From Verrucomicrobiales bacterium (GTDB taxonomy: Bacteria; Verrucomicrobiota; Verrucomicrobiia; Verrucomicrobiales; DEV007): a DNA stretch of 64,000 nt. Positions 41,378-46,700 of the stretch are shown piece after piece. Location: contig JARGOP010000017.1 in assembly GCA_029233965.1 (NCBI GenBank), positions 1 to 64,000 on the forward strand, given 5' to 3'. Numbering within the stretch: position 1 is the stretch's first letter; each line of letters begins with the position of its first letter. The notes beneath the pieces are model-generated. The model saw only the letters and a list, made by a program, of their open reading frames with translations, was not told where the DNA came from and searched no databases. The position numbers were made by a program, and so were the translations under genes.

Positions 41378-42931
41378 ATGCTCGGGGCTCAGATGATGAA
41401 ACTCCCGACTTTTCTTTGCCTCTTTTCGCTTTCCCTGCTCAGTTTTTCCCCCGGTGAGGGGCGAAAGCCGAACGTCATCGTCATCATGGCCGATGACCTG
41501 GGTTACGGGGACCTTTCCTGCTACGGTGCGAAGGATTTTGAGACTCCCTACATTGATCAGCTTGCGGCCGAGGGAATCCGATTCACGAACGGCTATTGCA
41601 GTGCCTCGACCTGCACTCCGACGCGTTACTCCTTTCTTACAGGAACATACGCGTTCCGGAAGCCGAACACGGGAATCGCTCCACCGAGCAGCCCTTCCGT
41701 GATCCCTGCGGGAACGCCGACGATCGCTTCGATGTTGAATGACGTCGGCTACAGCACGGCAGTGATCGGAAAATGGCACCTCGGCCTTGGCGGGGAAGAC
41801 GGCCCGGATTGGAACGGGGAATTGAAACCCGGGCCACTGGAGTTCGGATTCGATCACTGCTTTCTCCTTCCAACAACGAACGACCGGGTGCCTCAGGTGT
41901 ATGTGGAAGATCATCGCGTTTTGAACCTCGATCCCAATGATCCACTCTGGGTGGGGAACAAAAAACCGAGTGAAGATCATCCCACCGGGATCACTCACCG
42001 CGAGACCTTGAAGATGGATTGGACGCACGGCCACAACTCCACGATTCACAACGGCATCAGCCGCATTGGGTTCTACACCGGCGGGCATTCCGCCCGTTTC
42101 AGAGATGAAGATCTCGCCGACAAGTGGGTCGAAAAATCAGTCGAGTGGATCGAAGCGAAGAAAGAGGAACCGTTCTTTCTCTTTTTTGCCTCCCATGACC
42201 TCCATGTGCCGCGGATCCCGCATGAGCGGTTTCAGGGAGTCACGCCACTCGGATTTCGTGCGGACTCGATTGTCCAGCTGGACTGGTGCGTCGGCGAGCT
42301 CATGAAAGCGGTCGATCGTCTCGGTTTGGCCGAAAACACGCTTTTCGTGTTTTGCTCCGACAACGGGCCGGTCATGGATGACGGCTACGCGGACGAAGCG
42401 CTCGAAAAGCTGGGTGACCATAAGGCGGCCGGTCCGTACTCCGGCGGAAAATACAGTATTTACGAAGGCGGGACGAGGACGCCACTCATCACCCGCTGGA
42501 AAGGTACGATTGAGCCCGGGGTATCTGAGGAGCTGGTCACGACGATTGATTTGTATGGCAGCCTCGCCGCATTGACCGGTGGCGAAATTCCCGAAGAAGG
42601 AGCTCTCGACAGCTTCGATGTCATGGGTGCTTTTCTCGGGGAGGCGGAGGCGAAAGGGCGCGATCATTTTGTCCAGCAGGACAACGGAAAGGGCGGGAAC
42701 TACGGTTTCCGATCCGGCGACTGGAAGCTTCAGCGACATGATTCGAAGAAGACGAGGAACCTCGTCGTCGAGAAGCTCCTCGAAAATTCAACTGTCCCGA
42801 GGTTCCAGCTCTTCGATCTTTCAAAGGATCCTGCCGAGAAGAACAATGTAGTCGACCAGTATCCTGAGGTCGCGGAGGAACTGAAAGCACAGCTCGAAGA
42901 GATCATCACTTCAGGACGTTCCCGGAAGTGA
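41378..42931 (+). CDS. Exported sulfatase
   Basis: A 517-residue sulfatase. The metal motif is MADDLGYGDLSCYG and the formylglycine site is CTPTR with Cys79, followed by YSFLTGTYAFRKP. GKWHLGLG and FCSDNGPV are present. GGAG lies six bases before the ATG at 41378; in-frame ATGs at 41393 and 41396 would give a tidier signal peptide (KLPTFLCLFSLSLL). It is the last gene of the co-directional array. Confidence 0.92.
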   Translation: MLGAQMMKLPTFLCLFSLSLLSFSPGEGRKPNVIVIMADDLGYGDLSCYGAKDFETPYIDQLAAEGIRFTNGYCSASTCTPTRYSFLTGTYAFRKPNTGIAPPSSPSVIPAGTPTIASMLNDVGYSTAVIGKWHLGLGGEDGPDWNGELKPGPLEFGFDHCFLLPTTNDRVPQVYVEDHRVLNLDPNDPLWVGNKKPSEDHPTGITHRETLKMDWTHGHNSTIHNGISRIGFYTGGHSARFRDEDLADKWVEKSVEWIEAKKEEPFFLFFASHDLHVPRIPHERFQGVTPLGFRADSIVQLDWCVGELMKAVDRLGLAENTLFVFCSDNGPVMDDGYADEALEKLGDHKAAGPYSGGKYSIYEGGTRTPLITRWKGTIEPGVSEELVTTIDLYGSLAALTGGEIPEEGALDSFDVMGAFLGEAEAKGRDHFVQQDNGKGGNYGFRSGDWKLQRHDSKKTRNLVVEKLLENSTVPRFQLFDLSKDPAEKNNVVDQYPEVAEELKAQLEEIITSGRSRK

Positions 42932-43237
42932 GGGCGGCGCTGGATTCGGTTTCTTTTCGTGGAAGAGTAATCCTGTGGCTCCTGCGAGGAGCAGGATGAG
43001 CGACGTCAGGCCCGGAGAGAAAAACGGAACGGCTACGAAGAGGACCAGTTGACCCGGAAAACTCGTAACGGGATCCGTTTCTGGGGTCACGAAGCAATTG
43101 GCGAAAATGGCGATGATTCCGCCAACCCCGTGAACGGCTCCGACTCCGAGTCCGGCGACAATGGGGAGGAGCAGTCCCGGGTGAAGGGCGTTTCTCGATG
43201 AAGAGGTCACAGTAATCTCAGACTCAGGAGTTGCCAT
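42911..43237 (-). CDS. Small membrane protein, last gene of the GAF/subtilase/transpeptidase operon
   Basis: A 108-residue protein whose ATG lies inside the last codons of the L,D-transpeptidase gene (14-base overlap). Three hydrophobic segments are visible: LLLPIVAGLGVGAVHGVGGI, FPGQLVLFVAVPFF and GLTSLILLLAGATGLLF. The ends are polar. A longer in-frame start at 43324 would run through the transpeptidase gene and is unlikely. I recognise no family. Its 3' end also overlaps the convergent sulfatase by 21 bases. Confidence 0.6.
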   Translation of the reverse strand: MATPESEITVTSSSRNALHPGLLLPIVAGLGVGAVHGVGGIIAIFANCFVTPETDPVTSFPGQLVLFVAVPFFSPGLTSLILLLAGATGLLFHEKKPNPAPPSLPGTS

Positions 43238-44456
43238 CCTGCGGGATGACCTGGGCCACGAGCATGTCCTCTCGCGGGGCGCCCTGTTGGAGTTCCTGCT
43301 GGTCCCAGTTATCGAGAACTTCAACCGTCACTCCGCTGGCGGTGTGGGCGAAGAGAATCGGGGCGACACTTTGTGGAAGCCGGATACAGCCGGCCGATGC
43401 CGCATAGCCGGGCAGATCCCCGACATGCATGCCGATTGCACTGCTGTCGAGCCGCTGCCAGTAGGGGAGATCACATCCGTAAATGGTGGAAGTTTTCCCT
43501 TCGGCGACGCGCTGGGTGATCTTGAATGTTCCCCGTGGTGTTTCTTTCCCGGCACGGGCTGTCGAGACAGCAGTGTCAATCGCGACCATGTTATCGATGA
43601 GAAGATAGGCCCGCTGGGTCGCCACATCGACGATGACCTTCTTTTCGCCGGTTTCCCCGCGCGCTTCGAGGAGTGGGTGATTCACGAAGTGATCCCGGTG
43701 AACGTCCTGATAACCTGAGCGTGAAGCCTGCTGAACCGGAGCCGGTGCTTCGACGATCATCTGTTGGTGATTGATCTGAGCAATCCGCATCTCCTTCTTC
43801 GCCTTCATCTTCTTGAAAAGACCGGCCTCGGCTTCGGTGGTCGCTCCGAGAGTGATCCCGACGAGAGCCAGCACCGTGAGGGCTTCGCGAACTCCGTGCG
43901 CTTCCACTTCGGCATCTTCAAAGATCAGCCCGACATTGCCGTCATTTGTCCGGCAGAGTTTTTCGAATTGATCATCGTTCGCCATGAGAACACCGAGAAG
44001 CTGGACGCGGGCGGAAGAGCCGTCTTCAGCGGCTTCCCACCGGATCATGGGGAGCCTGGCTCCATCGTGCTGCAGGGAAGGATCATCGAGGGAGGATCCC
44101 AGGACCTCAAGAAAACGGCGAACATAGTCTTCCGGCTCCGAGGCGTCGGAAAGAGTTGAGAAGGCGGCACGATTGCTCACCAGTCCCTGCAATTGCAGTT
44201 CAAACGCATTGGCCCGCCACAGCAGATAGGGCTCGTCTTCCTCTCCGTCGAGGTGCACATCAAATTGCTGGAAGATCTCTGTCGCCTGCGGATTCGCATG
44301 CATCATGACGCCATCCTCGGAAACATCGAAAAGTAAGGACGAATCAGAGAACAGAGACGCGCAGAAATCGACCTCCGAGTTCAGGTTAAGCTCTTTATCC
44401 GCCCCTTCGGCGGGAAGTTGGTTCACGGGCCCGAGAAAGGTGGCGCGGGTGCTCAT
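43224..44456 (-). CDS. L,D-transpeptidase with a PAS-like N-terminal half and internal membrane segment
   Basis: A 410-residue protein. The C-terminal part is a YkuD L,D-transpeptidase domain: KKVIVDVATQRAYLLIDN, then His344 and the SAGCIR motif with Ser354 and catalytic Cys357. It would cross-link peptidoglycan or attach proteins to it. Residues about 30-190 lack a signal peptide; SLLFDVSEDGVMMHANPQA looks like the start of a PAS domain. A single hydrophobic stretch (ALTVLALVGITLGATTEAEAG, about 195-215) precedes the transpeptidase, so the N-terminal half may be cytoplasmic and the enzyme outside. It starts 42 bases after the subtilase stop and overlaps the small membrane protein. Confidence 0.85.
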   Translation of the reverse strand: MSTRATFLGPVNQLPAEGADKELNLNSEVDFCASLFSDSSLLFDVSEDGVMMHANPQATEIFQQFDVHLDGEEDEPYLLWRANAFELQLQGLVSNRAAFSTLSDASEPEDYVRRFLEVLGSSLDDPSLQHDGARLPMIRWEAAEDGSSARVQLLGVLMANDDQFEKLCRTNDGNVGLIFEDAEVEAHGVREALTVLALVGITLGATTEAEAGLFKKMKAKKEMRIAQINHQQMIVEAPAPVQQASRSGYQDVHRDHFVNHPLLEARGETGEKKVIVDVATQRAYLLIDNMVAIDTAVSTARAGKETPRGTFKITQRVAEGKTSTIYGCDLPYWQRLDSSAIGMHVGDLPGYAASAGCIRLPQSVAPILFAHTASGVTVEVLDNWDQQELQQGAPREDMLVAQVIPQDGNS

Positions 44457-44498
44457 CGTTGTCAGTATGCGTTAGTCAGTGGTTCAATGTCAATGCTG

Positions 44499-45299
44499 TC
44501 ACCAGTCAGGGCTCAAGCCGGGATGCCATGGCTCGGCGATTGAGGAGACTAAGGCGTACATCATTGAAGGAGGTATTCCGGGGTAGACGGACAGGATTCG
44601 CGCGATATGCGCAGAAATTTTCGGAGCAGCAAAACTCGTTCCGGTTTGCCTTTGAATTCCACCGTTCAACCAGGCGACTTCGACGTTTTCGCCCCGCGCC
44701 GAAAAACTAACGAGATGTTCCGGGCGGTAATATATTTTCTCCTCTTCAGTTTCGGCGAGATCGACTCCGAAGACAGGGGCAAAATGAGAAGGCCACTCCG
44801 CTTCGTCGTTGTCAGTGTTGCTGCAGGCGGCAACGACGTGAACACCTTTGAGCCAGGCTTCGTCCGACCACTCTTTGTGGGGGAGAATAAACTTGGCCAT
44901 GCCCCGGCAGCCAAAGCTGCAGTTCAGAATGTGGTAGCCACGTCTCATTGCCTCGCGAACGCCGGCGCAGATGAGGTGCGTCCTGGAAACACTTCGGGCA
45001 TCAATGACACGAAAGCTTCCAATCTCAGCCTCGGGTGCATTCCGGTGAATGATGTCTGCGACTGCGGTTCCGTGACCGAAAGAATCGTCGGCATTTTCCT
45101 CGACAACCTCCACGACTCCGTGGCGCTCTTCAAAGGCCACCAGGTCGATAATCGAGGCGTTGGCAAGGCGGGGATGGTTCGCTTCGATACCGGAGTCAAT
45201 GACAGCCACTTTCACCCCGCGTCCGGTGCCACTTTCTGACGCCTCCCTCACTTGCGCGAGCGTTGGGAAAGCGGATCGGTCGCTGATGCGATGGCTCAT
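44499..45299 (-). CDS. Cytoplasmic subtilisin-like serine protease
   Basis: A 266-residue S8 peptidase with an intact triad: Asp35 (VAVIDSGIEANHP), His76 (SFGHGTAVADI) and Ser222 (GTSFAAPKISA); Asn161 (AACSNTD) would be the oxyanion residue. There is neither a signal peptide nor a propeptide, so it probably acts in the cytoplasm, which is uncommon for S8 enzymes. Its ATG overlaps the end of the GAF gene (ATGA), and the transpeptidase follows. The substrate is unknown; one of its operon partners is the obvious guess. Confidence 0.9.
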   Translation of the reverse strand: MSHRISDRSAFPTLAQVREASESGTGRGVKVAVIDSGIEANHPRLANASIIDLVAFEERHGVVEVVEENADDSFGHGTAVADIIHRNAPEAEIGSFRVIDARSVSRTHLICAGVREAMRRGYHILNCSFGCRGMAKFILPHKEWSDEAWLKGVHVVAACSNTDNDEAEWPSHFAPVFGVDLAETEEEKIYYRPEHLVSFSARGENVEVAWLNGGIQRQTGTSFAAPKISAHIARILSVYPGIPPSMMYALVSSIAEPWHPGLSPDW

Positions 45300-45868
45300 A
45301 GCTCAAGATCCAATAACGAAGTGAGCATCCGGTAGTTCACAAGCCGTTCCATGACCGTGGAAAGTCGTCGCACACGATTCATGTTTCGTGCGCTGAAGCC
45401 GGAAGGGTTTGGCTCAGCGGGGTTCGCCTTGAGCTGAACGCAGCTGATAACGCCCCTCAAATTTCCCGCGATGTAAAACGGGGTCGCGATCATTGCGTAG
45501 GTAACTTGCCCGAGAGCTTCGTCAGCCTTTTTTGAGTGGTTGGCGTTCAGGTAGACTTCGTTCTCGCAGAGACATTGCCCGGACGCATAAACGAGCCCTA
45601 TCAGACCTTCGTCGAGGGATTGCTGCCACCCGAGAAAATCGGGGTCGGGTTCCGTGTGGGTTACGGTGAGATGCGTCTCATCGCGATCAGCGAGCCAGAC
45701 GGAAAGGGAATCCGCTTTCAAAGAGTCCATCGCCGATCTGAGAACTGAGAGACCGGGTGCTCCGATCAGGCCCGTGAACTCGTCGGGGGGTAGCGCCCGC
45801 GCGATTCGGTTGAGCGATTGCTCAAGATGGGCGGCATGGGGTGAGATTTCGGGGTCAGGTTGAATCAA
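45296..45868 (-). CDS. GAF domain protein, first gene of the subtilase/transpeptidase operon
   Basis: A 190-residue protein composed of a helical N-terminus and one GAF domain: SLSVWLADRDETHLTV, GWQQSLDEGLIGLVYASGQ, YAMIATPFYIAGNLRGVISCVQL, and a closing helix with RRLSTVMERLVNYRMLTSLLD. There is no output domain and no membrane segment, so it is a soluble sensor. Two Cys (QCLCENEV) sit in the ligand-side loop and might sense redox. It opens a four-gene operon; 284 bases without a gene lie upstream. Confidence 0.82.
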   Translation of the reverse strand: MIQPDPEISPHAAHLEQSLNRIARALPPDEFTGLIGAPGLSVLRSAMDSLKADSLSVWLADRDETHLTVTHTEPDPDFLGWQQSLDEGLIGLVYASGQCLCENEVYLNANHSKKADEALGQVTYAMIATPFYIAGNLRGVISCVQLKANPAEPNPSGFSARNMNRVRRLSTVMERLVNYRMLTSLLDLEL

Positions 45869-46152: not shown

Positions 46153-46700
46153 ATGAGTCGTATTATCAGCCTTCTCTCCATCGCTATTTCTGCAGTCGCC
46201 TTTGTTGAGGTAAGGAATCCTAATGTGCTCATAATCCTCGTCAATGACATGGGTTTTGGTGACCTCGGAGCCTGCAATCCGAACTCGAAAATTGTGATTT
46301 CGTATCTCAATGAGCGCGCTGCCGGAAGATGAAGTTCACGGATGCGCACGTGCCCGGTCCGCTTTGCCATCTCTCGCGCTACGGGCTCATGACGGGAACC
46401 TTTCCGTTCCGTATTGATGTCACAATCTGGCTGACGAAGCCAGCTATTAGGGAAGATGAACTCACGATTGCTGAGTTGTAGCTGCGCCATGACTATCGCA
46501 CCGCCATCGTCGGGAAATAGCACCTCGGATTTGATGAAAGGAACGGCTCCGAAAACCCTCTCCCGGGCGGACCGGTCGATCAGGGATTCGAGCGCTACTT
46601 CGGGATTCGCGCCTCGAATGAGATTCCTCCCTATTTACACCTCCGGGATGACAGGGCCGTGATCTTCTTCGGTGCACCGGGCTTCTGCCCGCCTTACTAG
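46153..46700 (+). pseudogene. Decayed sulfatase
   Basis: Sulfatase sequence is recognisable but broken. A signal-like start (ISLLSIAISAVAFVEV) leads into NPNVLIILVNDMGFGDLG, then an early stop at AAGR. The reading resumes in another frame with KFTDAHVPGPLCHLSRYGL, where the CxPSR site has become CHLSR, then LMTGTFPFR. A stop replaces a codon after TIAEL, and the KWHLG motif reads K-stop-HLG (tgg to tag). The rest ends around GFCPPY at 46698. It is about one third of normal length. It overlaps by four bases the intact sulfatase that runs towards it. Confidence 0.85.

Follow-up and report, generated by a model that had tools for sequence, protein, structure and literature searches.

Organization of the locus

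The stretch of DNA analysed here, referred to as the window, comprises 64,000 nucleotides of contig JARGOP010000017.1 from a Verrucomicrobiales bacterium. On its minus strand, adjacent genes code for a GAF-domain protein (45296..45868), a short subtilase of peptidase family S8 (44499..45299) and an L,D-transpeptidase (LDT; 43224..44456). An earlier note on this DNA had joined a fourth frame, coding for a small membrane protein, to these genes, and had proposed that a sensor-driven protease may target the cytoplasmic half of the transpeptidase. All four frames lie exactly at the positions given there; two of the junctions are overlaps, of 4 and 14 bases, and the third is a gap of 42 bases. This paper will focus on the first three genes, for which the conserved gene order and a short motif in the LDT suggest that the LDT is a substrate of the protease, cut in the cytoplasm before export.

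The GAF protein and the subtilase

The GAF-domain protein, which may serve the protease as a sensor or adaptor, consists of 190 amino acids and has a TTG start codon, where most orthologues have GTG. The Pfam models GAF_2 (E-value 5.6e-05) and GAF (0.0011) matched slightly below their gathering scores, with 23.8 of 28.6 and 20.0 of 22.4 bits, respectively, while a homologous GAF neighbour on contig C95 of the same genome exceeds both cut-offs. Orthologues are 52-85% identical to the window protein. The GAF gene was found directly upstream of the S8 gene in every LDT locus, and it is nearly always the gene preceding S8 in general. For this reason, a role of the GAF protein in gating or targeting the protease, as implied by the term "sensor-driven" in the earlier note, is plausible.

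The subtilase consists of 266 amino acids and contains neither a signal peptide nor a pro-domain. It matches PF00082 with an E-value of 3e-24 (86 bits) and aligns to subtilisin BPN' at 3e-28. The residues D35, H76 and S222 of the catalytic triad and the oxyanion residue N161 are invariant in the aligned proteases (set A2), which assigns the protein to family S8. No hydrophobic stretch is present at the N-terminus. Both the full triad and the lack of an export signal, as reported before, were confirmed. Only three S8 peptidases are encoded in the window genome, and each of them is short, signal-free and located downstream of a GAF gene. In a phylogenetic tree, the split between the GAF-linked proteases and the long subtilases sampled is fully supported, with the caveat that one long-branched outgroup row (L113) groups with the GAF-linked proteases and is of unsure placement. 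The LDT-linked proteases occupy two separate places in this tree.

Residue 166 of subtilisin BPN' lies at the floor of the S1 pocket and sets the preference for the P1 residue of the substrate, with Asp at this position favouring Lys (PMC3378952). In the window protease, the position of BPN' Gly166 is occupied by Glu168 (codon 44796..44798, minus strand). Glu is present here in all LDT-linked proteases and in nearly all proteases linked to a 73-amino-acid protein described below, and therefore the pocket would suit His or Arg at P1.

The PADLOC model "subtilase" was matched with an E-value of 3.1e-23, accompanied by weak matches to IetS, as might be expected for a defence or toxin-like module in which a subtilase effector is combined with a sensor. 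However, the resemblance to IetAS is restricted to the subtilase itself. The score remained far below the IetS equivalog cut-off, no IetA-type ATPase is adjacent, and the genes are kept at one genomic place among household genes, with the LDT as the constant partner. This makes a defence function the most improbable of the explanations considered.

The L,D-transpeptidase and its leader

The LDT consists of 410 amino acids, of which about 187 form an N-terminal leader. The catalytic domain (residues 272-380; 43317..43643) belongs to the YkuD family, with an E-value of 1.4e-12 and 48.9 bits against a Pfam cut-off of 23.4 bits. Residues H344, S354, G356, C357 and R359 are invariant in the alignment, and the domain superimposes on solved LDTs with a Z-score of 15.4 (4xvo; 1.8 Å over 113 residues). 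The only hydrophobic segment is located at about residues 192-208 and is preceded by about 190 residues that do not look secreted, in agreement with the earlier description of a non-secreted N-terminal half ahead of a single membrane segment. It forms the core of a Sec signal ending in the signal-peptidase site AEA/G (residues 192-211; 43824..43883; slashes mark cleavage sites or junctions throughout). A209, A211 and G212 are invariant, and an AxA-type site is present in 25 of 25 sequences.

Residues 1-170 (43947..44456) are predicted to form a domain of alpha/beta fold. For residues 1-177 alone, AlphaFold gave a confident domain with a mean predicted local distance difference test score (pLDDT) of 81.9 and a predicted template modelling score (pTM) of 0.79, and it predicted a disordered stretch at residues 171-231, which contains both the hydrophobic segment and the conserved motif EDAEVEAHG. 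Searches of the PDB with the N-terminal domain revealed no match (best Foldseek E-value 0.18; best VIA-align Z-score 2.9); a type III chaperone-like fold, considered for this domain as a guess, found no support in these structure searches. Close to the N-terminus, a box FLGPVNQLPAEG (residues 7-18; 44403..44438) of the form PxxxLPxEG was identified as a possible docking site, with P10, P15, E17 and G18 unchanged in all of 26 sequences, which cover three families. Among the LDTs, the conservation amounts to 2.94 bits for this box, 3.14 bits for the motif, 3.17 bits for the AxA/G site and 3.20 bits for the catalytic domain, while residues 21-170 are loosely conserved across divergent members (2.08 bits). 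Two LDT paralogues of the window genome (L005 and L006), which have no S8 partner, carry the signal at their start and lack both the leader domain and the motif. This indicates that the leader goes with the protease. L005 has the same EAG/LF.K junction.

Across 25 LDTs, the median net charge is -4 for the 20 residues ahead of the hydrophobic core and +4 for the 15 residues that follow the AxA site. This arrangement would be expected to oppose both an N-in/C-out insertion and Sec export of the uncut protein. A cut after the His or Arg of the motif would leave G-x-R-E, with a charge of about +1 including the new N-terminus. It is this shift from -4 to about +1 before the core that led us to propose an unmasking of the signal. 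The same region could be read differently, with the LDT inserting N-in/C-out with its leader attached, and the subtilase later trimming or degrading the cytoplasmic domain at the same motif, so that export would not be licensed by the cut. This reading, which is close to that of the earlier note, would account for a single hydrophobic segment following a folded domain predicted to be cytoplasmic and for a motif on the cytoplasmic side. However, the flanking charges disfavour this topology, and the AxA/G site equals the catalytic domain in conservation, as would be the case for a cleaved signal. We regard it as unlikely, although it is the strongest of the competing explanations.

Conservation of the gene set and variety of partners

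In a first look, all 13 orthologous loci examined in the genus showed the order GAF-S8-LDT, at one genomic place between household genes. By wider sampling, the three genes were found in six more loci of the genus; four further genera of the same family have them as well, as do two additional families of the order. An order that recurs across genus, family and order shows an association far beyond chance. The proposed co-occurrence thus extends well beyond this locus for the GAF protein, the protease and the LDT; the small membrane protein, which had been included in the proposal, is not conserved. Of 289 sampled Verrucomicrobiales genomes, 84 contained a match to the protease model and, among the matches listed, the named members of the group belong to Akkermansiaceae / Verrucomicrobiales. 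In 387 sampled genomes of the phylum, a leader-bearing LDT was not seen outside Verrucomicrobiales beyond one other family.

The GAF-S8 pair recurs with changing partners. Common in Verrucomicrobiales are loci in which the pair is accompanied by a sigma-70-like gene and a protein of 71-79 amino acids (L054 4008-6617, L058, L069, L152-L157 and L177-L203). This small protein gave no library match and may be another substrate of the protease. At the C95 locus (L054:4008-4871), a membrane protein follows the GAF-S8 pair, with a marginal PqqD-like match at its N-terminus (ScmD model, E-value 0.0074, far below the cut-off). At L157:6219-6683, a protein of 154 amino acids adjoining S8 looks like a type III secretion chaperone, which is an impression only.

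A second set of partners was identified on contig C23 of the window genome (locus L055 (58000-72000), 7273-12096), in a cluster resembling those for ribosomally synthesized and post-translationally modified peptides (RiPPs). This cluster consists of a GrrM/OscB radical S-adenosylmethionine (SAM) enzyme, which scores 433 bits against a family cut-off of 310, an MbnB/TglH/ChrH enzyme, a precursor, a GAF protein and an S8 protease. Two DVEAH-coding sites lie 155 bases apart in C23, suggesting two copies of the precursor, and relatives of the cluster (L158-L162) have precursor cores such as GWCWRHNHFCNHWRRNCWRNHCHH. ATP-binding cassette (ABC) exporters are neighbours of the pair in two further loci (L076 and L077), and proteases of Actinobacteria and Chloroflexota also have a GAF gene just upstream. 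Cys-rich peptides of 69-77 amino acids adjoin GAF-S8 genes at L189:4732-4965 and L165:8036-8536 and are possible further cargo; in the L189 peptide, EVGGR precedes the Cys-rich C-terminal half, and a piece of an ABC transporter is present in the locus.

A motif shared by the neighbours of GAF-S8 pairs

The neighbours of GAF-S8 pairs have the motif [DE]-[VIA]-x-[AG]-[HR] in common. It was found in the linker of 27 of 27 S8-linked LDTs, at one position directly before the Sec signal, while its background is 0.147 per 1000 amino acids in unrelated neighbours and one in 120 small proteins. In the window LDT, the site EDAEVEAH/G spans residues 180-188 (43893..43919), with the bond following His187 as the predicted point of cleavage. 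Variants in other LDTs are EIQAHG, EVEGRG and EAEGHG, and the P1 residue is His or Arg in all LDTs. In the proteins of 71-79 amino acids, the corresponding sequence is PDVEGH or PEVSGR, and the last position is occupied by His in 16, by Arg in 18 and by Leu in one of 35 sequences. The C23-type RiPP precursors contain GDVEAH/GWCWRRN at the border of leader and core, and the core following DVEAH is rich in Trp, Cys, His and Arg. In Actinobacteria, peptides with EDVEGH (Phycicoccus, 67 amino acids) and DDVEGH (Micropruina, 87 amino acids) were identified, the latter encoded about 4.5 kb away from the protease gene. Since each of these families is internally homologous, the independent support has to be counted as three or four unrelated families rather than by the number of sequences.

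Aligned as P5 to P1 of a subtilase substrate, the motif has an aliphatic residue at P4, Ala or Gly at P2 and a basic residue at P1. This fits the rules known for subtilases, and the motif reads as a cleavage site. When 25 genomes of the genus were scanned for the motif pattern, chiefly the LDT site was detected, along with a few unlinked matches. In the window genome, the DNA pattern for E[DE]xE[VIM]x[AG][HR]G has two unlinked matches (C28:32924-32949 and C148:9845-9870), which may be trans substrates or chance; the shorter pattern for DVE[AG]H is too common in DNA to be informative. A search of the open-licence literature for the strings DVEAH and DVEGH returned unrelated matches only.

A different role of the motif would be to dock the GAF protein or some other partner, with the protease acting on another target and the LDT being controlled by binding. 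The GAF protein is indeed a more constant neighbour than any single type of substrate, and a second conserved box is present at the extreme N-terminus of the LDT. However, the motif follows the P4-P1 grammar of subtilases, with a matching Glu in the S1 pocket, and in RiPP-type precursors it is located between leader and core, the place at which cleavage would be expected. We consider docking quite improbable. Ordinary co-transcription, with a promoter shared for historical reasons and no relation of protease and substrate, is compatible with the fact that no experiment connects the three genes. It is very doubtful, since LDTs are partners of S8 proteases from two separate places in the tree, the motif is shared and the leader is confined to S8-linked LDTs.

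Proposed maturation of the LDT

The reading that we favour, with a probability of about 0.57, is that the GAF protein and the subtilase form a pair of cytoplasmic sensor/adaptor and leader peptidase, and that the LDT is their substrate, the cut of which would license export. The LDT would be made as a precursor that starts with a folded domain and continues with a flexible linker, which has the motif at its end, the Sec signal and the YkuD domain. Uncut, it should be exported poorly, because the hydrophobic core does not lie at the N-terminus and follows a strongly acidic stretch of about 20 residues. The cytoplasmic S8 protease, assisted or gated by the GAF protein, would then cut after His187 and remove a leader of 187 residues with an acidic end. 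The new N-terminus, GVRE-ALTVLALVG...AEA/G, would represent an ordinary signal peptide of 24 residues, now unmasked, so that the freed LDT could be exported by the Sec pathway, cut by signal peptidase and engaged in cross-linking of the wall. By gating or targeting the protease, the GAF protein would tie a cytoplasmic cue to the supply of LDT in the periplasm. The idea of the LDT being attacked by the protease in its cytoplasmic half is supported in a sharper form, as a proposal, by a motif that ends this half and an S1 pocket that fits its P1 residue.

Several points weigh against this reading. The strict pattern is missed by 14 of the 35 small (73-amino-acid) proteins, and the motif is degenerate in several of them. 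The RiPP-type proteases have Gly instead of Glu at the S1 floor, yet the motif of their precursors ends in His. The oxyanion Asn is absent from one of the LDT-linked proteases (L173). In addition, the motif with its His or Arg could be a binding site instead of a cut site, and the folded domain before the signal could be a simple, permanent N-in membrane anchor.

On a wider view, for which the odds fall somewhat short of even, the locus would be one case of a general bacterial module, in which a GAF sensor and a cytoplasmic subtilase recognize one site, [DE]-V-x-[AG]-[HR], in unrelated cargo, and in which the cut converts a hidden internal hydrophobic segment into a functional Sec signal in the case of the LDT, placing the export of a wall-building enzyme under regulated cytoplasmic proteolysis. 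Cytoplasmic S8 leader peptidases are a known kind of enzyme, and what would be new here is the class of cargo, an LDT. One site for many cargoes under a GAF sensor would, if shown, be more than a variant of this kind. If the proposal is true, a cytoplasmic protease, perhaps under the control of a small-molecule sensor, times the export of an enzyme for cell-wall cross-linking, and the removal of leaders known from RiPPs has found a second use in ordinary enzymes and in small proteins adjoining sigma-like factors. A site of five residues would further allow the substrates of this protease family to be predicted from sequence.

Comparison to known systems

The nearest precedent for the proposed cytoplasmic cut, with which the motif and topology of the LDT are consistent, and for a licensed export is QhpE. 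This enzyme acts in the cytoplasm in a single turnover and takes off a leader ahead of translocation (PMC7876137). Like QhpE, which is its best NCBIfam model and also among the best for its relatives, the window protease is a short S8 enzyme without signal or pro-domain. However, it is not QhpE, either by the curated cut-off (95.4 bits against 165 for the equivalog NF049966) or by its operon partners, which include neither QhpC nor the radical SAM protein QhpD and instead a GAF protein. The substrates also differ, since QhpC leaves the cell by an ABC exporter and the window LDT is of the Sec type. The window thus encodes an S8 protease together with a YkuD LDT; by analogy, the former may work like a leader peptidase.

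For epilancin 15x, the cytoplasmic S8 leader peptidase ElxP recognizes [DE]-[LV]-x-x-Q (PMC10885120), a site of the same shape as judged from its description. In contrast, the P1 residue is Gln instead of His or Arg, the substrate is a lanthipeptide and no GAF partner has been reported. The GrrM/OscB cyclophane RiPP clusters are related to the window locus by the paralogous GAF-S8 pair and the DVEAH-containing precursor of C23. However, a RiPP-modifying enzyme, either a radical SAM or an MbnB-type enzyme, is absent from the window locus and present in C23, and the cargo in the window is an enzyme instead of a peptide. With other YkuD LDTs, the window protein shares the catalytic domain, the C357 motif and the fold; it differs by its cytoplasmic leader with a protease-like site and by SAGC, which replaces SHGC in the genus. 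Searches of the open-licence literature for papers joining GAF, subtilase, LDT or MNIO returned nothing relevant, consistent with the earlier statement that no described system with this gene set was known.

Neighbouring genes

The small membrane protein (42911..43237, minus strand) was rejected as a fourth component. It matches the C-terminal part, about 80 residues, of an ammonium-transporter gene of 425-462 amino acids, which is present as a whole at the equivalent place in the relatives L042 and L170. Because it is further missing from nearly all orthologous loci, it is regarded as a transporter remnant outside the system and not as the operon member it had been taken for. The remnant overlaps the end of a convergent sulfatase by 21 bases.

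Besides the GAF protein and the LDT, sulfatases are the neighbours of S8 in the window. The space separating the GAF gene from the sulfatase at 46697 contains short frames on the plus strand (46153-46523), which resemble the N-terminal part of a sulfatase and probably represent a decayed sulfatase gene.

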